DNA of 12,388 nt from Gemmatimonadota bacterium (GTDB taxonomy: Bacteria > GCA-2686955): NCBI GenBank assembly GCA_002686955.1, contig NYZA01000180.1, positions 1 to 12,388 on the forward strand, given 5' to 3'. Below are positions 469-11,747 of the stretch, in pieces. Every line of letters begins with the position of its first letter. Positions within the stretch are counted from its first letter, which is position 1. The position numbers and the translations under genes are program-made. The notes beneath the pieces are model-generated. The model searched no databases. It saw nothing but the letters and a program-made list of their open reading frames with translations, and was not told where the DNA came from.

Positions 469-1509
469 TCAACGCGGATCCGCCTCCCAGCGCGGATCCA
501 GCTCGACCCGCGAGGCGAGGGTCTGCAGGGTCCGCAGTCCTTCCATCTTCGATTCGCCCGGGGCATAGACCGACATATCCACCAACAGAGTGCGATGCGC
601 GGCGGGGTCGGGAATGCACCAAGTTTCGAAGGGGCCGCCCATCACGTAGCCGCGGTTCTCCCAGAGGCCGCGCAGGCGCACCCCCGGGCGGCCCTCGAAG
701 GATCGCTCATCGGTCTTCAAGCCTTCGCTCCGGATGAGGTCGCCATCGTACACTTCGCCGATGACCGCATCTCGCCAGATGCGGCAACGCTCGCGCAATC
801 CACGCTCCGACGCACCGGGCATCGCCTGCACGAGAAGCTGCCAATCCTCTTTCTTGCGCCGTTTCCAGATCGCCACTCGGGCGTGGTCGCGATCGAAGTC
901 GCGAATCAGCCATCTGCGCGGGATCGGCACCTTGATGCCTGTCTCTCGAGCGGCGCGTTCCTCTGCTTCGCTCTGAGTTCGGCGCAGGATCTTGTCCGCC
1001 ACCCGCTCGCGGACGAATGAATCGTACACATCGCGGAGCGCGGTCCCCTGCACGAGCACCCGCCCGCGGATCTCGGCGCCGCTCTCGCCGCTCAACACGC
1101 CGACCAGCTGCGGGTGCGCCCAGAGATCTCTCTTCGTTCGCAGCCAACCGTTCTCGGCCGAATCATCGGCGAGTGTCGCCAGCGTCATATGGGGACGCAA
1201 GAGAGAAAACGCCTCGCCCCATCTGTCGTGCGTGCCGGCGATCAAAATCATCGCGAACTGGCTGAAGAACTCGAAATCCGCCGGAGATTCCCGTCGGACT
1301 TTGTAGATCGATTCCTCTCGCGGCGTTTCGATCGGCTCTTCGAAAAGCGCGCGGATCGGTTCTTCCAGCTCGGACCAGTCCACCGCGTCGGCAAAAACGA
1401 CAACAGTTTTTTCCGGCGACATCGATGTGCGCGCATCGAGTGGGCGCTCGCACGCGGAGAGAAACGACACTATTCCGATCCACTGAGCGAATGAAGCACA
1501 CCCTCTCAA
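469..1509 (-). CDS. DUF4837 family lipoprotein
   Basis: This is a predicted 346-residue lipoprotein of the DUF4837 family, whose function is unknown and which is best known from Bacteroidota. The N-terminus MRGCASFAQWIGIVSFLSAC is a short signal with lipobox LSAC, so Cys20 would be lipidated and the mature protein membrane-anchored in the periplasm. Family traits visible are a beta-rich start (EKTVVVFAD), the IRALFEEPIETP segment, AMILIAG, and IKVPIPRRWLIRDFD in the middle. Near the C-terminus are LRGLWENRGYVMGGPF and a final VDMSVYAPG strand before the last helix. The length is usual for the family. The TTG start at 1507-1509 is preferred: it lies 9 bp after GGGAG, gives a proper lipobox, and overlaps the upstream stop as TTGA. 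The next in-frame ATG (1422) would lose the signal. It is the last gene of the sigma-factor module, which suggests an envelope role. Confidence 0.75.
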   Translation of the reverse strand: MRGCASFAQWIGIVSFLSACERPLDARTSMSPEKTVVVFADAVDWSELEEPIRALFEEPIETPREESIYKVRRESPADFEFFSQFAMILIAGTHDRWGEAFSLLRPHMTLATLADDSAENGWLRTKRDLWAHPQLVGVLSGESGAEIRGRVLVQGTALRDVYDSFVRERVADKILRRTQSEAEERAARETGIKVPIPRRWLIRDFDRDHARVAIWKRRKKEDWQLLVQAMPGASERGLRERCRIWRDAVIGEVYDGDLIRSEGLKTDERSFEGRPGVRLRGLWENRGYVMGGPFETWCIPDPAAHRTLLVDMSVYAPGESKMEGLRTLQTLASRVELDPRWEADPR

Positions 1510-2711
1510 TGCGGAATGCTCCCGGTGCAACGCTCCAGCTCGAATCTGAGCTGATCGACCTCCGATTCGAGTGTCTCGAACTTCGCTTCGAATAGCTCCA
1601 ACGCTTTTGTCGGAGGGGAAGAGACGTGGGACGGCGACAGATTTTTCTTCTCCGCCGCGCCCATGCCCTCTTGCGCGATCGCCCAGTCTACCGATCGATC
1701 GAAGCCTACGGTGCGGCGACGAATCACCACATCGACATCGAGTGGAGAGCCGCCACGACTCGCGGACACCCGCAAGGCGGTACCGATCGGCGAATAGACG
1801 ACCGACTCGAGCAGCGCGTCTACCGACGGCACCGTGACCCCATTGACCTTGAGGATCCGGTCCCCCGGCATGAGCCCTGCTTCGAAGGCCGGCCCTCGCG
1901 GCACCACGTCGGTGACCTGCACGCAGGGCAACGGGTCCGAGCATTCTTCCGCCGTCACGCCGAGGTAGCCATATTCACCCTGCGCACCCTTGGCGATCAG
2001 GCGCTCCAAGCCTCGCCTTGCGCGTGCGATCGAAACGGCCACACTCAGATCTCCCGGCCCGGTCTCCGGTAGCGCACCGGCCACGATCCCGATCAGCTTT
2101 CCGGCGATGTCGAGCACCGCCCCTCCCGCGTCGCCCGGGCCGATCGGGGCGGTGATGTGCATCCATTCCGAAGGACCCAGATCGAGGCCACGAGGTACTC
2201 CGCCGCCGACCAGGCCAATCTTCGCACTCGGTCGGTCCCCCGTCGGATTCCCTAGGATCAGAATCACCTCGGCGTTTCGGGCTGGAACGTGGCGACGAGG
2301 AAGGGGCGCCGCCAGCTCTTTGGTGCTTTGCAGCACCGAGAGCCTGCTGATCGGATCTTGCCCGAGCAGCGAGGCCTGCCTCGCCTCCATCCCCTCAGCT
2401 CGAATCTCGATCCAGCTCGCGCGGCCGAGCGCGGGATCGAATGTGACCACATGATGCGCATCCCAAACGACGCCGCTCACCACCCTCACGGGCGTCTGCT
2501 CCGCTCCGTCGGCTGGCGCGCGATACGAGGAGACGACCTTCACCACGGAGCCGGGATTCGAGTCCAGGATCTCCTGGATCTCGGCCTGAAGTTCGCCAAG
2601 GAAGCCGGCTGGAGCGGATGCGGGCATCAGCAGGGCCGCGGCTGCGATCAGAAGTGTGGAGCAGGCGATTCGCTCGACGAAAGGGAGCGGGCTGCGACGT
2701 GGCGATTCCAT
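1506..2711 (-). CDS. HtrA/DegS-like PDZ protein with degenerate catalytic triad (pseudoprotease)
   Basis: This 401-residue exported protein has the layout of HtrA proteases: signal peptide (about 1-35, hydrophobic LLIAAAALLM then ASAPA), trypsin-like domain (about 45-240), PDZ domain (about 248-333: YLGV, VVPRGPAFEAGLMPGDRIL, VNGVTV), and a C-terminal coiled coil (about 368-395). The protease scaffold is clear, especially GPGDAGGAVLDIAGKLIGI at 191-209, which aligns with the GNSGG loop of DegP. The active site is lost. The His of TNxHVV aligns with Pro93 (VVTFDPAL), the Asp of DPxxDLAVL with Arg123 (DPISRLSVL), and the Ser of GNSGG with Ala195 (GDAGG). It should not hydrolyse peptides and may bind or sense peptides through the PDZ domain. 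It starts 17 bp after the anti-sigma gene and overlaps the lipoprotein start by 4 bp. The start has only a weak ribosome binding site. The fold call is firm and the role is inferred. Confidence 0.85.
   Translation of the reverse strand: MESPRRSPLPFVERIACSTLLIAAAALLMPASAPAGFLGELQAEIQEILDSNPGSVVKVVSSYRAPADGAEQTPVRVVSGVVWDAHHVVTFDPALGRASWIEIRAEGMEARQASLLGQDPISRLSVLQSTKELAAPLPRRHVPARNAEVILILGNPTGDRPSAKIGLVGGGVPRGLDLGPSEWMHITAPIGPGDAGGAVLDIAGKLIGIVAGALPETGPGDLSVAVSIARARRGLERLIAKGAQGEYGYLGVTAEECSDPLPCVQVTDVVPRGPAFEAGLMPGDRILKVNGVTVPSVDALLESVVYSPIGTALRVSASRGGSPLDVDVVIRRRTVGFDRSVDWAIAQEGMGAAEKKNLSPSHVSSPPTKALELFEAKFETLESEVDQLRFELERCTGSIPH
1519..1523 (-). promoter_or_regulatory. Ribosome binding site deciding a TTG start
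   Basis: GGGAG on the minus strand lies 9 bp before the TTG at 1509-1507. It sits inside the 3' end of the HtrA-like gene, whose TGA overlaps the TTG (TTGA). This supports the TTG as the true start of the lipoprotein gene and suggests translational coupling. Confidence 0.55.
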
Positions 2712-2728: not shown

Positions 2729-3427
2729 TCAGAAACTCCGCCTGCTCCGACCCGTCTCGAGGATAGCAGCTCGATCGCGCGCATCGAGCGCGGCGGGCAC
2801 GATCCTCGCGGCTGGGGGAGCCGCTCCGCCCAAAGGCTCGGGAACGAGCGGCAGAGATACCGTTTCGGCGGCGAGGCGGGCCTCGAGCTCTCCGAACGCC
2901 GATTCCAGATGGCCATCTTCGGCCGTGAGCGCGCTGTCTTCGGGCACCGCGGCGAGGTCGCCGACTTCAACCGGGCCTGCGATCGAGGCGATCACCTCCG
3001 ACGGCAGTACCGGGATCGGCTCGTCGCGTTGGGCTATCCGCGAGGCAGCGCCGGTGAAAGGGGAGGTTTCGACGGGACGAAGAAGAGCGACACCCAAGAC
3101 CGCGCATGTGGCTACCAGGGCGGCGGTGCGCAGCGGCCGCAACGCCAATGCCTCGGCGACGCGATCGGAGACCTCTCTCCAGGTCCAACCACCGAGATTG
3201 TCGGTGCGGACTCTTGCCATGACGCGTGCTTCGAAATCGGCGGGAGCTTCTACCGGCTCGAGGCTCTCGAGCAAACCGATCGCGGCGCGCATACGGTCGA
3301 GCTCGCTCCGACACTTCACGCACTCCTCCGCGTGAAGCTCGACCAGGCGAACGACGCGCTCGTCGGCATCGGCATCAACGGTTTCGGCGATCAGCGGCCG
3401 GACCGCATTGCATCTCATCCGACTCAT
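2729..3427 (-). CDS. Zinc-finger (zf-HC2) transmembrane anti-sigma factor
   Basis: This 232-residue protein is a typical ECF anti-sigma factor. The N-terminal cytoplasmic domain has Cys6 and the HxxxCxxC signature (His32, Cys36, Cys39) of zinc-binding anti-sigma domains. One membrane helix follows (about 98-117, TAALVATCAVLGVALL). The remaining 115 residues would be periplasmic: acidic and alanine-rich, with a proline-rich segment near the end. By family knowledge the zinc domain holds the partner sigma factor at the membrane until the anti-sigma is cleaved or changes shape. Its ATG overlaps the sigma stop as ATGA (3427-3424), and a strong GGAGG lies 7 bp upstream (3435-3439), indicating coupled translation with its cognate sigma. 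The protein ends in Arg-Ser-Phe, a hydrophobic C-terminus of a kind PDZ domains can bind, and the next gene encodes a PDZ protein. Confidence 0.85.
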   Translation of the reverse strand: MSRMRCNAVRPLIAETVDADADERVVRLVELHAEECVKCRSELDRMRAAIGLLESLEPVEAPADFEARVMARVRTDNLGGWTWREVSDRVAEALALRPLRTAALVATCAVLGVALLRPVETSPFTGAASRIAQRDEPIPVLPSEVIASIAGPVEVGDLAAVPEDSALTAEDGHLESAFGELEARLAAETVSLPLVPEPLGGAAPPAARIVPAALDARDRAAILETGRSRRSF

Positions 3428-4020
3428 CCGAGGGCCTCCACATAAGGCTGCATGAGGTCTTTGAAACGGCTTCGTGCGCGGTTCACCCGCGACTTGATCG
3501 TGCCGAGAGGCACACCGACGATTTCGGCGATCCTCTCGTAGGAATGTCCCTGAACATCTCGGAGCACGAAGGCCACACGGTACTTGATCGGCAGATCGGC
3601 GATCGCTTTCGCGATCTCTCCTCCCAGCTCGTGCTGCTCCGCGAGCTCGGCCGGGCCGCGCGCGTTGTCTTCGACATCGCGAACCAGCTCGTCGCCGGAG
3701 GAGGTACGAAGGGGACGCTCGAGCGAGATGAACGAGACCCGACGCCTGCGGCGGAGCTCATTGATCGCGAGATTGCTTGCGATCCGGTAGAACCAGGGGC
3801 TGAAGCGCGCCCCGTCGCGAAAGGTGTGGGCCTTGGTGAAGACCCGAAGAAACGCCTCTTGGGCAATGTCTTCCGCCAGCTCCCGGCTGTTCACGGTGCG
3901 ATACACGAATCCGATGATGCGGGACTTGTATCGAGAGACCAGCTCCTGAAACGCCGCATGGTCACCCTGCTTCACCAGGGCCATCAACATCTCGTCGGTC
4001 GGTCGTTTCGAATCGGGCAT
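3424..4020 (-). CDS. ECF-type RNA polymerase sigma factor (RpoE-like)
   Basis: This 198-residue sigma-70 family protein contains only regions 2 and 4, the mark of extracytoplasmic-function (ECF) sigma factors. Region 2 spans about 24-93 and includes AEDIAQEAFLRVF and PWFYRIASNLAINELRRRRR. An acidic linker follows (about 105-133). Region 4 spans about 134-188, with LPIKYRVAFVLRDVQGHSY and the helix-turn-helix YERIAEIVGVPLGTIKSRV that reads the -35 element. The length is usual. It is followed at once by its anti-sigma factor (4-bp ATGA overlap), so it is presumably held inactive at the membrane until an envelope signal arrives. A candidate ECF-type promoter lies about 53-80 bp before the start, consistent with autoregulation. 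No good ribosome binding site is seen before the ATG. The regulon cannot be read from this window. Confidence 0.92.
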   Translation of the reverse strand: MPDSKRPTDEMLMALVKQGDHAAFQELVSRYKSRIIGFVYRTVNSRELAEDIAQEAFLRVFTKAHTFRDGARFSPWFYRIASNLAINELRRRRRVSFISLERPLRTSSGDELVRDVEDNARGPAELAEQHELGGEIAKAIADLPIKYRVAFVLRDVQGHSYERIAEIVGVPLGTIKSRVNRARSRFKDLMQPYVEALG

Positions 4021-5251: not shown

Positions 5252-8200
5252 CTACCCGCTCAGAGCGCCCAGGATCGTACCTTTCTCGCCACTTTGAACC
5301 AGGCCTCGCCCGGCCTCGAGTAGTTCGATGGTTCGATCCATGAGCACCTCTTCCGGGATCTTGCCCGCCTCGTACTCCTTGATCAGCCGCGCCTGCGCTC
5401 TACGATCCAGATTCGAGATGCCGGCCTTGCTCTGGAGCATGCGCCAGCTCTTGCGACGCTCGACGCAGAAGAGCACCATCTGGCGGCTGATCCCGATCGG
5501 CTGCAGCGAACCGTCCGCACCCTGGACCATAGTCCACGAGCCCTCGGCCGGAACGTACGCCCTGTGGGCCGGATCGAGGAAACGACGGTGAACGACATCG
5601 TTCTGCGTGATGCGGGCCAGCAGCGTATCGAGATCGGCTCGTTGCTCACGATCCTCGGGCGTGACCTTGTGGAAGTGTCGCCGGAATCGCGCTTCGGTAT
5701 GCGCCCAGTGGGCCACTGTGTAGCGATACTTCTCCTTCGTGGGCCTGATCGTGATTGTCTGCCAGTCGGCTTTCGGCGAAGGGTTGCCCTTGAGTGAAAG
5801 GCAGTCTTCGTAGCTCTCACCGCCGCGAGGATCGAAAACCAGCTCAGGAACACCGCGACTGTCTCTGGCGCGTTGGGCCTGTTGCGAAGCCACATCGTCG
5901 CCCACGCCGTGCTCGGGCTGACAGGTCGTGTAGCTCTGCAAGAACGCCGTTCCTCGATAGCAGAGACCGTCGATCACGGCCTGGAAGAGCGCCGCCGAGT
6001 TGGCGATGGAGATCTGCGCGACGAAGGGGCTTCCGTGACCCGAAATCAGCGCCTCCGCGACGCTTTTCTTTTCGGTCAGCTTGCCTTCGGTTGCGGCTCC
6101 GAACTGGTTCATGTCGAGACCGCCGGGCATCGGGGAGCTGTCGGAGTTCTGGCCGCCGGTGTTGGAGTAGACCTGCGTGTCGAGGAGCAGCACGTGCAAG
6201 TTCGGCCGATTCTGCAGGATCGCCTTCGACACGTTCTGGAATCCGATGTCGCCGAAGGCGCCGTCGCCGCCGACCGCCCACACTTTCGGTAGCTCGATGA
6301 TCTCTTGGTCGGTCATCAGGGTGTCGGTGAAGTGGGTCAGATCCCAGTAGCCCTCCTTGTCGAGTCCATAACCTCCCACGACCAAGCCGGCCAATCTCTC
6401 CGGAAGGACGGAGCGACGCGCGTGGCTCGTGATGAAACCCTCGGCCAGGAGCCATCCGATTGTGGCTCCATCCTGGAAGAGTGAGTTCACCCAGGGGTAA
6501 GGATGCGGATTGCTGGGGTGCGTCGATCCGTAAACGGTGTTGCAGCCGGTACTGGCCGACATACCCATCACCGACATCCCGTTCCATTTGCCGCCGTCGA
6601 CGGCTTGCAGGTCACGGTGATTGTGGGCGTCCTGACGCAACACCTGAACCAGCGTGCCGATCAGCACTTCGTCGGAGCCGTCGAACCCGGTCTCGATGAT
6701 CCGGTCGGTATCCTGATCGTTTTCGCCGCCGAAGCCCAGTACGATGTGCAAAACGGCCTTGCGCAGATAATCGTACCCTTCGGCGTTGGTCGAGCGAAGC
6801 TCGCTCAGCTTTCCGATCCCCTCGCCCTCCAGCTTCGACGCCAGGGCTTCGAGGCGTTCCGCCTTCCGGTGGAAGACCGGTCTCATCAGCGCCTCAGTGA
6901 TGGTGCTGGTCGCGCGCAGCACCGATTTCTCGCCGCAGCCCGCGCAGGCTCCATCGCCCGCGACCAGCGCCTGGTAGTTGCTCCTAACCATCAAGTGGAA
7001 GTGCAACGCGGCCGCCTTCGATTCCTCGGGATGTTCCGAATCGAACTGCCCCAGGAACTGTCGTGGAGTGTCGGGGAGCAGATTGAGGAACTCGATCGCG
7101 GTTTCGTGTTCGGCGTAGACGTCCTCCGTCTCTTCGACCATCACCAATGCTTCGTGCTCACCGCACTCATGGACGCACTCGCCGCAGCCCTTGCAGAGAT
7201 CGCTGACGAAGATCGAGAAGACGCCTCCGCTTCCCGGCTCCTTCTTCTCGCGGCTGCCGAAGATCATCTTTACGTTGCTGTACGCGACCGGGATGGTCGG
7301 AGCCACGGTTTTGAGCTCTTGCAAAGCCTGCGCCGCCGCGTTGCTCTCGTATTCTCCCGCCGCGGTGATATATCGCTCGACCTCCGCCAAGAAGAGATCG
7401 GCGAAAGGTGTTGCTTCCGCCTGTTTGGCGCTCTCCGTCATCGCGCCGCGCAACGGAGCCTCGATCGCCGCGAGATCGCCGATGAGCTTGTCTCTGACCT
7501 CGCCGGCGGAGACGTAGTGCAATATCAACGCCCGGATAACCGTTCCCAGCTCCTGCGCTGTGTTCGGCAGAGCTGTGTCGGGGCACGCAGTGATGCAGGC
7601 CATACACTGAGTACAGTTTTCCGGAATGAAGCGAGGGACGAGCCGCCTGGCGACGTACTTCCCAACGGTCTCACCGGTCGCCGACGCCAGCGCTCCGGTC
7701 GCGGCCCGCGGTGAGCTCGGAGTGTCGTAGCCTAGCCCCGCGCGGAACTCACCGTCGTAGTGGGCGCGCGAGAAGAGCGGAGACCGCAAGGTGCAGCCCA
7801 GCACATCGTTCGCCACGCCTCGAGCCGGCACCGGGGCCAGTGCGTTCAACCAGGCCGTGCCGAATCCACCCGCGCCGTTCTCGCCCGGTCCGTTGGAGCT
7901 GGGTGAAGCGGTCGGGCCTTTCATCGATGAGCGGTCGGCGGAATCGACCGAACCGTGATGGATCTCCCTGACCTGATCGAAACCGTGCTGCATCACGGTC
8001 ATATTCGATTCGACCACGGCCTCGCCGAAGCGCCCGAATTTGCTCTCGTACTGGCCACGTACCGCCTCGAGGAACTCGCCCTCGGGGATCTTGTAGTCGC
8101 CGAGGAAGCTCGAGACCGCGAAGAAAGCGCCGAGGAACGAGTTGCCCTGCATGCGGTACTGCAGATCGGCTCGGTTGGTTGCATCGCGGGCGACAGCGAA

Positions 8201-10048
8201 GCCGTCGAGCACGAAGAGCCGAATCTCCTTGTCGATGATCTCTTGGCGGTACTGGGCCGGAATCCGAGACCAGACTCCCTCGTCGGTCGACTCGCTCGAC
8301 TCCCAGACGAATGCGCCCCCCTCGTTCAGTCCCGTGAGGGGATTGGTGTGCAGGAACACCTTGGGATCGCAGCAGAGCACGACATCGACGTGGCGCAGAT
8401 CGCAGTTCACCCGAACCCGCTCGCTCGCCGCGACCAGGAAGTAGTTGGTCGGAGCGCCTTTCTTCTCGGATCCGTACTTCGGGTTGGCGCTGATCTGAAT
8501 GACGCTCGACGGATCGTCGACTCCGTCGCGCTTGCCGACGTAGGTGCCCAGCTCGCCGAGGATCTCTCCCATGTTCTTGCCGGTCGTGATCATGCCCCAA
8601 CCGCCGATCGAGTGGAAGCGAACCGCGATCGCGCCCGCGGGCAGAAGGCTCGGGGTTTCGTCCGCCCTCACCGCGTAGGGGTGGGGGATCCCAACGTAGA
8701 AGAAGCTCGCCCCATCGACCGCGCGCTTTCCATCCTCTCTCGCGATCTTGCCGGTCGCGTACTCGTAAGCCCCCAGGATCCCCTCGGGCCGAAAATCGCG
8801 TGATCCCAACCCATAGGTACCGGAGAAGATCCGGGGGACTTCGCTCTGTTCGACCGTGGGCAGATCGGCGTGGGCCGGGCTGATCGAATTCTCGACCGCC
8901 TTGCCGAAGGCCGTGCGGATGTCTCGAACCAGCGGATTGTCGCCCGCGGTCTGATCGTCGATCCGCTCCAACACGATCACCCGCTTCTTGCCGCGAAGCG
9001 CCTCGAGAATCGCCTTCTCGGGGAAGGGGCGTACGACATTGAGATGGATCGACCCGACCTTTTCGCCTCGGGTCCCCCGAATGTGGTCGACCGCGGCCTC
9101 GATGTTCTCCGCGGCGGAGCCGATCGAAACGAAGACCGTGTCGGCGTCGTCACAGTGAGTCTGACTGATCAGGCCGTAGCGGCGCCCGGTCAGCTCCGCG
9201 AACTCCTCGTAGGCATCTTCGAGAAACTGGAGAATCGGCTCCACGAAGTGGTGCCTTCTGGCCGCGACCCCCTGCATGTAGTGCTCTTGGTTCTGCACCG
9301 GTCCCAGGAGCATCGGGTGTCTGAGATCGATTCCCGCGGGCACGCGCCGCCTGGTCGCGCCGAAGATCTCCTTCTGCGCGGCGGTCGGGCAATCGATGAT
9401 GTCGTCCGCTCGTCCGAGGAACTCCCGAATCAGCCCGGCCTCGGGCTTGGTGAATGTGCGCTCGAGGTGAGAGGTCAGAAACCCGTCCTGCCCATTGATC
9501 CCCGGCGTGAGCGAGAGCTCGTTGACCCGCCTCAGAATGAGTGCCTGATCCGACGCCTGCTGGGCGTCTTTTCCGTAGAGGATCGTCCAGCCGGTGTCGA
9601 GGGCCATGTAGATGTCGTCGTGCCCGCAGTGCACGTTGAGGGCGTGTTTCGTAATCGCTCGTGCCGAGACCTCGAGCACCATCGTCGAGAGCTTGCCGGG
9701 CGCGTGGTAGTACTGCTCGATCCCGTAGGCGACTCCCTGGCCGGAGGTGAAGTTGACGACCCGCCGGCCGGTAAGCGAGTAGGCGATCGCTCCGCCCTGC
9801 GCGGCGTGCTCCCCTTCCGTTTCGATCGCGATCTTTGCGTCTCCGAAGACGTTCAGCTCGCCGAGGGCGAACGAAAGCTGGAAACTCTCGCCCATTTCGG
9901 TGGAGGGGGTGATGGGGTAGAAGATCCCCGCTTCGGCGAGCCGGGCCTCGGTATAGTAGGAGACAAGCTGGTTCCCGTTGGTCGTGACGGGGATTCCCGG
10001 GTACTTGGCAGTCTTGGTCTTTTCCGCCACACTGGCTGGAGTCGACAT
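5252..10048 (-). CDS. nifJ: Long-form pyruvate/2-oxoacid:ferredoxin (flavodoxin) oxidoreductase
   Basis: This about 1598-residue single-chain enzyme would oxidise pyruvate (or another 2-oxoacid) with CoA to acyl-CoA and CO2, passing electrons to ferredoxin or flavodoxin in the cytoplasm. Domains follow NifJ order: domain I (about 15-240, YPITPSTEMGE), domain II (about 300-425), gamma domain (about 471-697, SANPKYGSEKKGAPTNY), Ser/Gly/Pro linker (about 705-727), ferredoxin domain, and TPP domain (VGGDGAFGDIGFQN, SNTGG). All cluster cysteines are present: Cys812/815/818/822, Cys952/955/958/962, and the TPP-side set Cys1035/1038/1169/1376. Usual NifJ length is about 1170-1200. The excess lies between the two ferredoxin motifs, between Cys1038 and Cys1169, and in a C-terminal tail after about 1430. 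The ATG at 10048 has GAGG 9 bp upstream and homology begins soon after; a GTG at 10117 would add 23 residues. Enzyme class is secure; substrate and the function of the additions are not. Confidence 0.93.
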   Translation of the reverse strand: MSTPASVAEKTKTAKYPGIPVTTNGNQLVSYYTEARLAEAGIFYPITPSTEMGESFQLSFALGELNVFGDAKIAIETEGEHAAQGGAIAYSLTGRRVVNFTSGQGVAYGIEQYYHAPGKLSTMVLEVSARAITKHALNVHCGHDDIYMALDTGWTILYGKDAQQASDQALILRRVNELSLTPGINGQDGFLTSHLERTFTKPEAGLIREFLGRADDIIDCPTAAQKEIFGATRRRVPAGIDLRHPMLLGPVQNQEHYMQGVAARRHHFVEPILQFLEDAYEEFAELTGRRYGLISQTHCDDADTVFVSIGSAAENIEAAVDHIRGTRGEKVGSIHLNVVRPFPEKAILEALRGKKRVIVLERIDDQTAGDNPLVRDIRTAFGKAVENSISPAHADLPTVEQSEVPRIFSGTYGLGSRDFRPEGILGAYEYATGKIAREDGKRAVDGASFFYVGIPHPYAVRADETPSLLPAGAIAVRFHSIGGWGMITTGKNMGEILGELGTYVGKRDGVDDPSSVIQISANPKYGSEKKGAPTNYFLVAASERVRVNCDLRHVDVVLCCDPKVFLHTNPLTGLNEGGAFVWESSESTDEGVWSRIPAQYRQEIIDKEIRLFVLDGFAVARDATNRADLQYRMQGNSFLGAFFAVSSFLGDYKIPEGEFLEAVRGQYESKFGRFGEAVVESNMTVMQHGFDQVREIHHGSVDSADRSSMKGPTASPSSNGPGENGAGGFGTAWLNALAPVPARGVANDVLGCTLRSPLFSRAHYDGEFRAGLGYDTPSSPRAATGALASATGETVGKYVARRLVPRFIPENCTQCMACITACPDTALPNTAQELGTVIRALILHYVSAGEVRDKLIGDLAAIEAPLRGAMTESAKQAEATPFADLFLAEVERYITAAGEYESNAAAQALQELKTVAPTIPVAYSNVKMIFGSREKKEPGSGGVFSIFVSDLCKGCGECVHECGEHEALVMVEETEDVYAEHETAIEFLNLLPDTPRQFLGQFDSEHPEESKAAALHFHLMVRSNYQALVAGDGACAGCGEKSVLRATSTITEALMRPVFHRKAERLEALASKLEGEGIGKLSELRSTNAEGYDYLRKAVLHIVLGFGGENDQDTDRIIETGFDGSDEVLIGTLVQVLRQDAHNHRDLQAVDGGKWNGMSVMGMSASTGCNTVYGSTHPSNPHPYPWVNSLFQDGATIGWLLAEGFITSHARRSVLPERLAGLVVGGYGLDKEGYWDLTHFTDTLMTDQEIIELPKVWAVGGDGAFGDIGFQNVSKAILQNRPNLHVLLLDTQVYSNTGGQNSDSSPMPGGLDMNQFGAATEGKLTEKKSVAEALISGHGSPFVAQISIANSAALFQAVIDGLCYRGTAFLQSYTTCQPEHGVGDDVASQQAQRARDSRGVPELVFDPRGGESYEDCLSLKGNPSPKADWQTITIRPTKEKYRYTVAHWAHTEARFRRHFHKVTPEDREQRADLDTLLARITQNDVVHRRFLDPAHRAYVPAEGSWTMVQGADGSLQPIGISRQMVLFCVERRKSWRMLQSKAGISNLDRRAQARLIKEYEAGKIPEEVLMDRTIELLEAGRGLVQSGEKGTILGALSG

Positions 10049-10057
10049 CGCTCTCAT

Positions 10058-10061
10058 CCTC
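10058..10061 (-). promoter_or_regulatory. Ribosome binding site favouring the ATG at 10048
   Basis: GAGG on the minus strand lies 9 bp before the ATG at 10048. It lies directly against another in-frame ATG (10057), too close to serve it. The upstream GTG at 10117 has no comparable site. This decides the oxidoreductase start. Confidence 0.5.
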
Positions 10062-10177
10062 GGTTTCGTTTTCGGGCCCGAGTAGGCTGGATCGTTGTAG
10101 AGAGCCGCGGGTCCCACAGCGGCTGATGTTGTCTAGCCAAGCTCTAGAACCTAGCACTCTGACCCCTGCTAGTCCAA

Positions 10178-10190: not shown

Positions 10191-11747
10191 GTGATCGGCT
10201 CAAATCTCGCGACGACCATCTCGCTGACTCTCGTCCGGGCTCTGGTCCTTGCATGTCTATTGGGAGGAACGATTTCGGGAGCTCCCGCGATCGGCCAGGG
10301 GGCCGACTCTCTGGCCAACGTGCAACCGAGCCCCTCGACGTCGACCAACCGATACGGGGGCGCCGACCTCTTCCGCGGCAAAGGCACCGGCTTTTTCCGT
10401 GTAGAAAAGACGCAAGAGGGGCGCTGGTGGCTCGTGACACCCGACGGCTACGGCTTTTTCTCGCACGGAGTCGGCGTGATCCGCCCTACATGGAGCGCCG
10501 AGTCTGCCTTCGAGGAGCGTTTCGCGAGCGACAAAGCGCGTTGGGCTGCATCCGCTCTCGGCATGCTCCGTGACCTCGGAATGAACACGATCGGCCCCGA
10601 TCACCACGACCAACGCTACGTTTGGCTCGAGCCCTTGCGCCGGGTCGAGCCGCGCACTCCATACACTTTGGTCTTCGCTCCCGTCCCCTATCTGCCGCGC
10701 CGCAAGCCAGGCCAGCAGCGACACATTTTTCCCGACGTCTTCGAGACGAAATTCGAGCGGCGAAGCATGCGGGCGGCGAAGCGCGTCGCGGCCGAGGTGG
10801 CGAGCGATCCCTACCTGATCGGTTACCTCTTTCACAACGAGATGGACTGGGGGACCTTTGGGCATTTTTCGGGACTCTGGGCCGGGTATGTTCGCTTGCC
10901 TCCAGACGCTCCCGCCAAAAAGGCCTTCGTCGAGCTTCTTCGCGCGCGCTACGAGGGGGATGTTTCGGCGCTACGGACCGTATACGGATCGGCTCCGAGT
11001 CTACTCAACCACAAGAAGTGGCTCGATGCGAACGGGGATGATGGACCGATCCCCACATCGGTACGGTCTCGCGTAGAAAGCGTCTTCGCCGGCCCCCGCG
11101 CGCCCAGCTTCGAGAGCTGGAACGATGTCGCGGCATTCACCGATGCCGGTTTTCTCGAGATGGCGGTGCGTCTCAACCCCAAAGCACGGGCCGATGTCGA
11201 AGCATTCTTGGGTGTGATATCCGATCGCTACCATGGGGTCTTGGCGCGGTCACTGCGCGCCGTTGATCCGAACCATCTGCTGCTGGGATGCAAATTCGTC
11301 GGCGGAAAAACGGTTCCCCTCCCGGATGCTGTTCTCATGGGCGCCGCCCCCTACGTGGACATCATCTGTCAAAACGTCTATCACAATCCATTCAAGCGAC
11401 CCGCGGCGAGGCAGATCGGATTCATGGAACGTTCCTACAATCTTACGGGGAAGCCGATACTGATTACGGAATGGGGTGGCTTCCACGGTCAAGATGTCGC
11501 GACCTGCGAGTGTTACGTGCCTTTGCCGACGCAGAAGGATCGCGCGAAGGCATACACCCACGGAATTCGGCGCTTGGCCGCGGCTCCGTGGCTCTTGGGG
11601 GTCCACTACTACAGCTACGCCGACCACGCCGGCAAGAACTGGGGAATCGTCGACACCCGACTGGAGCCGTACCCGGAGATCACCGGCGCCATCCGTTCGG
11701 TTTCACCGCACCTCGCCCCGATTCATGCGGGGAAGATGGTTCCTTGA
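10191..11747 (+). CDS. Secreted agarase-like clan GH-A glycoside hydrolase
   Basis: This 518-residue protein has a signal-peptide-like N-terminus (hydrophobic about 8-30, then APAIGQG) and one TIM-barrel glycosidase domain. The segment GRWWLVTPDGYGFFSHGVGV (77-96) is the strand-1 signature shared by agarase-like and GH42/GH50-like enzymes. LIGYLFHNEMDWG (209-221) carries the Asn-Glu pair of clan GH-A, making Glu217 the likely acid/base. PILITEWGGF (422-431) makes Glu427 the likely nucleophile. Both catalytic residues are intact, so it should be a retaining hydrolase of extracellular or periplasmic polysaccharide or oligosaccharide. The substrate (agar, other galactan, or other beta-glycan) cannot be told. 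No carbohydrate-binding module or other polysaccharide gene is present here. The GTG start follows a good ribosome binding site. It converges on proS with only 16 bp between the stops. Confidence 0.75.
   Translation: MIGSNLATTISLTLVRALVLACLLGGTISGAPAIGQGADSLANVQPSPSTSTNRYGGADLFRGKGTGFFRVEKTQEGRWWLVTPDGYGFFSHGVGVIRPTWSAESAFEERFASDKARWAASALGMLRDLGMNTIGPDHHDQRYVWLEPLRRVEPRTPYTLVFAPVPYLPRRKPGQQRHIFPDVFETKFERRSMRAAKRVAAEVASDPYLIGYLFHNEMDWGTFGHFSGLWAGYVRLPPDAPAKKAFVELLRARYEGDVSALRTVYGSAPSLLNHKKWLDANGDDGPIPTSVRSRVESVFAGPRAPSFESWNDVAAFTDAGFLEMAVRLNPKARADVEAFLGVISDRYHGVLARSLRAVDPNHLLLGCKFVGGKTVPLPDAVLMGAAPYVDIICQNVYHNPFKRPAARQIGFMERSYNLTGKPILITEWGGFHGQDVATCECYVPLPTQKDRAKAYTHGIRRLAAAPWLLGVHYYSYADHAGKNWGIVDTRLEPYPEITGAIRSVSPHLAPIHAGKMVP

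Follow-up and report, generated by a model that had tools for sequence, protein, structure and literature searches.

The window analysed here, a stretch of 12,388 nucleotides, is the whole of contig C180 of a draft genome (G000) that is 84.5% complete; its phylum is represented by two genomes among those compared. The minus strand of the window carries, in 5' to 3' order, genes for an ECF sigma factor, an anti-sigma factor with one transmembrane (TM) helix, an HtrA-like protein that we call pseudo-HtrA, and a DUF4837 lipoprotein (Table 1). The sigma and anti-sigma genes overlap by 4 bases, and the pseudo-HtrA gene lies directly downstream of this pair, which is the arrangement that defines the family described below. 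The probable start of the lipoprotein gene overlaps the 3' end of the pseudo-HtrA gene, and both gene order and overlap are the same in the sister genus G001. Beyond its TM helix, the anti-sigma factor has a periplasmic tail of about 113 residues that ends in ...RSRRSF. An ECF-type promoter of the pattern GGAAC-N-GTC was not found upstream of the sigma gene, and the frequency of this pattern was not above chance.

Table 1. Features of the sigma/anti-sigma/pseudo-HtrA gene cluster in the window.
Feature	Positions	Strand	Evidence
ECF sigma factor, 198 aa, SigW/RpoE-like	3424-4020	-	Pfam Sigma70_r2 and r4_2 above cut-off
Anti-sigma factor, 232 aa	2729-3427	-	Weak NCBIfam anti-sigma matches; HxxxCxxC zinc-type motif
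Putative PDZ ligand, final three codons of the anti-sigma factor (Arg-Ser-Phe)	2732-2740	-	C-terminal aromatic residue enriched in partner anti-sigma factors
Pseudo-HtrA, 401 aa: signal peptide, inactive trypsin-like domain, one PDZ domain, C-terminal helix	1506-2711	-	
Codon 93, Pro (CCC), catalytic His position	2433-2435	-	phmmer, MAFFT
Codon 123, Arg (AGG), catalytic Asp position	2343-2345	-	phmmer, MAFFT
Codon 195, Ala (GCG), catalytic Ser position	2127-2129	-	phmmer, MAFFT
PDZ domain, about residues 247-333, GYLGV carboxylate-loop motif	1713-1973	-	Pfam PDZ_2/PDZ_6/PDZ
C-terminal helix, residues 368-395, predicted coiled coil	1527-1610	-	AlphaFold2 model, alignment
DUF4837 lipoprotein, probable TTG start at 1530, lipobox LSAC	469-1530	-	PF16125, E 4.8e-28

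An earlier note on this DNA had claimed that an intact frame encodes an HtrA-family protein with a preserved scaffold and all three catalytic residues replaced, and our analysis bears this out. The frame is open over all 401 codons. Alignment to DegP with phmmer and to dozens of intact HtrAs with MAFFT pairs the catalytic His with Pro93, the Asp with Arg123 and the Ser with Ala195, and the loss of Ser, which the note had read from the minus strand, is indeed encoded in the DNA. The Pfam models Trypsin_2 and PDZ both score above cut-off (44.8 bits against 27.6 for PF13365), so the protein has the HtrA/DegP-like fold; with P, R and A in place of the His-Asp-Ser triad, it falls outside the active HtrA serine proteases. 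Nor do the DegS equivalog models recognize it (TIGR02038, 69.7 against 422.95 bits; PRK10898, 55.6 against 408), and the window protein and four further family members score below the cut-offs of all HtrA equivalogs. The structural comparison proposed in the note gave the same picture: an AlphaFold2 model (pLDDT 81.5) aligns to DegS, DegQ, MucD and AlgW with Z scores of about 26-28, and the best structural neighbours include DegS with a YQF peptide and AlgW with a decapeptide. No alternative triad is apparent, because the only His residues near position 93, H86 and H87, lie upstream of the strand and H87 falls at the Tyr/His of GYxLTN, a motif position that varies in intact HtrAs too. Within the PDZ domain, G248, L250, G251 and V252 are invariant across the first nine family members, and the C-terminal helix is found in most members by alignment. 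Since the genome encodes two further HtrAs with an intact triad (on C111 and C46), HtrA proteolysis itself has not been lost from it.

The copy in the sister genus is a fragment, 45% identical, with Ala in place of the catalytic Ser and the same DUF4837 gene downstream. Its contig begins at residue 195 of the orthologue, so that the comparison covers the Ser position and not His or Asp; the N-terminal half of the orthologue and the G001 anti-sigma gene were looked for in that genome and not found. A scan of the genome contigs with the window protein returned ordinary HtrA/PDZ relatives alone and no pseudo-HtrA, and the wider family was reached through relatives of the DUF4837 protein, a relative in G040 and a profile search. 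The operon of sigma, anti-sigma and HtrA-like genes, often followed by DUF4837, occurs in 13 families whose carriers span, by their recorded phylum assignment, at least four phyla: that of the window, those of G137 and G321, and the remainder outside these three. The catalytic His is replaced in every family member that covers the position; MAFFT aligns P, F, D, S, T, N, G or A there (for G040, F by MAFFT and T by HMM alignment). In the discovery family, Asp is replaced in about half of the members, while Ser is lost from the window protein, the G001 copy and five more; the Ser substitutes across discovery and hold-out members are A, T, I, M, G, N, V or L. When HtrA genes with sufficient flanking sequence were counted, all 15 sigma-linked HtrAs lacked the His and all 53 unlinked ones had His, Asp and Ser. 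About 1.2 kb separate the intact HtrA of G237 (L141) from the sigma/anti-sigma pair upstream of it; being non-adjacent, this HtrA was not counted as linked, and it offers a useful contrast.

Because the discovery loci came from profiles built on the same family, we examined a hold-out set in the phylum of G321 (82 genomes), where hits were picked by a match reaching through the C-terminal coil and the triad played no part. All 39 hold-out proteins with an upstream sigma gene lack the catalytic His, these being coil-spanning hits and not a census of all sigma-adjacent HtrAs, with two of the 39 from same-genus relatives of G321. Two further hits at contig starts also lack it, and all 15 long unlinked HtrAs retain His, Asp and Ser. 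This shows that architecture, sigma linkage and loss of His occur together. A dead HtrA is found in the same cluster across at least four phyla, always adjoining a membrane anti-sigma factor.

A phylogeny of 85 proteins separates all 26 dead forms from the intact ones by a single branch (SH-aLRT 100), as an earlier tree had done with a support of 98/99; in both, the window protein groups with the HtrA-like proteins linked to sigma genes and away from canonical HtrAs. Long-branch attraction may contribute to this grouping because the dead forms evolve fast. The dN/dS test suggested in the note indicates purifying selection in one genus pair, G137/G274 (dN 0.19, dS 1.23, dN/dS 0.16); the values for G195/G326 and for G000/G001 (about 0.49) are uninformative, both pairs being distant.

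The draft state of the metagenome bin might suggest a pseudogene or a sequencing or assembly error, an explanation that we consider next to negligible: it is contradicted by the intact frame, the same Ser-to-Ala replacement in G001, the cross-phylum family and the purifying selection in one pair. The note had named a lone mutation as a finding that would undo its proposal; the replacement is not a lone one, since G001 shares the Ala at the Ser position and the family HtrAs beside ECF sigma genes lack the His. Together with the single branch and the dN/dS of 0.16, the Ser loss in G001 and the cross-phylum operon family uphold its reading that selection maintains a pseudoprotease here and that the gene is not in decay. 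That some members are still enzymes with a non-canonical catalytic arrangement is very improbable. Several members do keep Ser and Asp, but the His is absent from all of them and has many different substitutes, Ser is changed in many, and the window protein lacks all three triad residues.

The anti-sigma factors encoded next to pseudo-HtrA genes have characteristic C-termini. Of the 17 discovery partners, 15 have an aromatic C-terminal residue (12 Phe, 2 Tyr, 1 Trp), the others ending in Leu (G040) and Pro (G059), and all 39 hold-out partners end in Phe or Tyr. By comparison, an aromatic end was found in just two of 37 distinct zinc-type (ZAS) anti-sigma factors encoded without a pseudo-HtrA in the same genomes, a control set that includes two from sigma/anti-sigma/DUF4837 loci and from which one duplicate row was removed. 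The difference is significant by Fisher's exact test for the discovery set (2e-9), per family (11/13, 1.5e-7) and for the hold-out set (<1e-16). At both sigma/anti-sigma/DUF4837 loci without a pseudo-HtrA (L103/G100 and L104/G238), the anti-sigma factor ends in Arg. The zinc motif is present in 32 hold-out partners, a count that excludes the window anti-sigma factor, and absent from seven, which end for example in TVEF, SVQF or SIQF. Residue -2 is V, I, L, M, F, Y or W in 23 of the 32 tails. Judged by sequence, many partner tails are like class-II PDZ ligands of the hydrophobic-x-Phe type and resemble the tails of outer-membrane proteins (YxF/WVF) to which the PDZ domains of DegS and AlgW bind; C-terminal WVF and YYF peptides activate AlgW and DegS (PMC8545111). 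The window tail, RSF, has Arg at -2, which is not hydrophobic. A YVLP-like segment is frequent in the periplasmic tails of the partners and is not evident in that of the window. The zinc-less anti-sigma factors at L255, L256, L262, L271, L285, L287 and L288 also keep a hydrophobic-x-Phe tail.

From the tail motif and the retained PDZ carboxylate loop, we infer that pseudo-HtrA binds its own anti-sigma factor, and the sequences strongly suggest that the PDZ domain is the binding part. As the conserved dead protein adjoins a regulator with a PDZ-ligand-like tail, the dead HtrA is probably a sensor or cap and not a pair of scissors. We therefore favour, with moderate confidence, a conserved exported single-PDZ pseudoprotease whose PDZ domain grips the tail of its own anti-sigma factor and gates its proteolysis. 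The PDZ domain would bind the anti-sigma C-terminus in the periplasm, with the dead protease domain and the C-terminal coil forming the body of a cap or scaffold. With less certainty, the cap may keep the tail out of reach of a genuine site-1 protease until it is displaced by unfolded outer-membrane proteins, which have C-termini like the anti-sigma tail; displacement would lead to cleavage and release of the sigma factor. Such a role would amount to the job of RseB/MucB, which shields RseA/MucA against site-1 cleavage (PMC8545111), done by a DegS-type peptide sensor without its blade. An RseP-type site-2 protease scored above cut-off in 14 of 15 carriers, the window's genome included, which supports the mechanism weakly, as most bacteria are expected to have one. 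More tentatively, these loci may represent a widespread envelope-stress module in which unfolded outer-membrane proteins compete for a dead HtrA sensor whose PDZ domain holds an anti-sigma C-terminus that mimics them.

Pseudo-HtrA could equally recruit a protease. It might, for example, act as a scaffold or activator that delivers the anti-sigma tail to an active HtrA or the site-2 protease, or that joins an active HtrA trimer. MamO sets a precedent, being a pseudoprotease of HtrA fold through which the active MamE is switched on by non-catalytic means (PMC4794232); active-type HtrAs are encoded in the same genome, and the PDZ-tail evidence fits equally. Sequence gives no preference for activation over protection, and the cluster has no conserved active-HtrA gene; we regard activation as rather unlikely and prefer, by analogy, shielding with displacement by outer-membrane-protein tails. 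The note had offered a peptide sensor, a scaffold and a decoy as possible functions; of these proposals, direct PDZ binding is favoured by the tail motif, which does not separate a shield or decoy from a scaffold. A periplasmic non-proteolytic chaperone of the sigma regulon, binding unfolded proteins like inactive DegP and making no contact with the anti-sigma factor, would suit the retained HtrA fold and PDZ domain and the lipoprotein gene next in the cluster. It is improbable, since it leaves unexplained the aromatic ends that are peculiar to the partner anti-sigma factors as opposed to others in the same genomes.

The closest known systems share some features with pseudo-HtrA and differ in others. 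The note had assumed that an active DegS/MucD-type protease is usual at this operon position, which we could not sustain: the classical systems do not have an HtrA gene immediately behind the anti-sigma gene. E. coli degS lies outside the rpoE-rseABC operon, and in algU-mucABCD, mucD comes fifth; MucD shares with pseudo-HtrA its place within an ECF sigma operon but is an active-type protease. DegS and AlgW share the fold, the single PDZ domain, the periplasmic location and the tie to an ECF/anti-sigma pair. Pseudo-HtrA differs from them in lacking the triad, in its gene position, in its C-terminal coil and in that its putative PDZ ligand sits on the anti-sigma factor itself. RseB/MucB is, like the proposed cap, a non-enzymatic periplasmic partner encoded after the anti-sigma gene, but it has an unrelated fold with a lipid-binding domain and no PDZ; the window protein, built from trypsin and PDZ domains, is not a member of this family. 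MamO has an HtrA-fold domain with a degenerate triad and a non-catalytic job (PMC4794232), but binds metal, carries a transporter domain and has no sigma linkage.

No entry naming a sigma-linked pseudo-HtrA group was found in NCBIfam, Pfam or PDB, and a literature search restricted to open-licence papers yielded no description of an HtrA pseudoprotease linked to an ECF/anti-sigma pair. What appears to be new is the altered division of labour; the HtrA fold and ECF/anti-sigma signalling are known. In the sigmaE paradigm, detection of unfolded outer-membrane proteins and cleavage of the anti-sigma factor are both tasks of one HtrA protease. Many lineages appear to have kept the sensing fold and discarded the cutting, and the anti-sigma factors in these lineages end in a peptide of a type that such PDZ domains bind. 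This would be a clean case of a sensor function split from a protease function, with a testable peptide-competition mechanism, and genes annotated as HtrA or DegP beside ECF sigma genes may encode non-enzymes.

The DUF4837 lipoprotein is a frequent fourth gene of the cluster (469-1530 in the window; L055-L104). In its predicted structure, the C-terminal half resembles PsbP/Mog1/DcrB-like domains, which suggests no mechanism, and our literature search found no paper on this lipoprotein. Elsewhere in the window, the plus strand encodes a 518-aa exported protein without a Pfam or NCBIfam match (10191-11747). A pyruvate:ferredoxin oxidoreductase-like gene (5252-10117) encodes a protein of 1621 aa, which we take to be several hundred residues longer than a typical NifJ.
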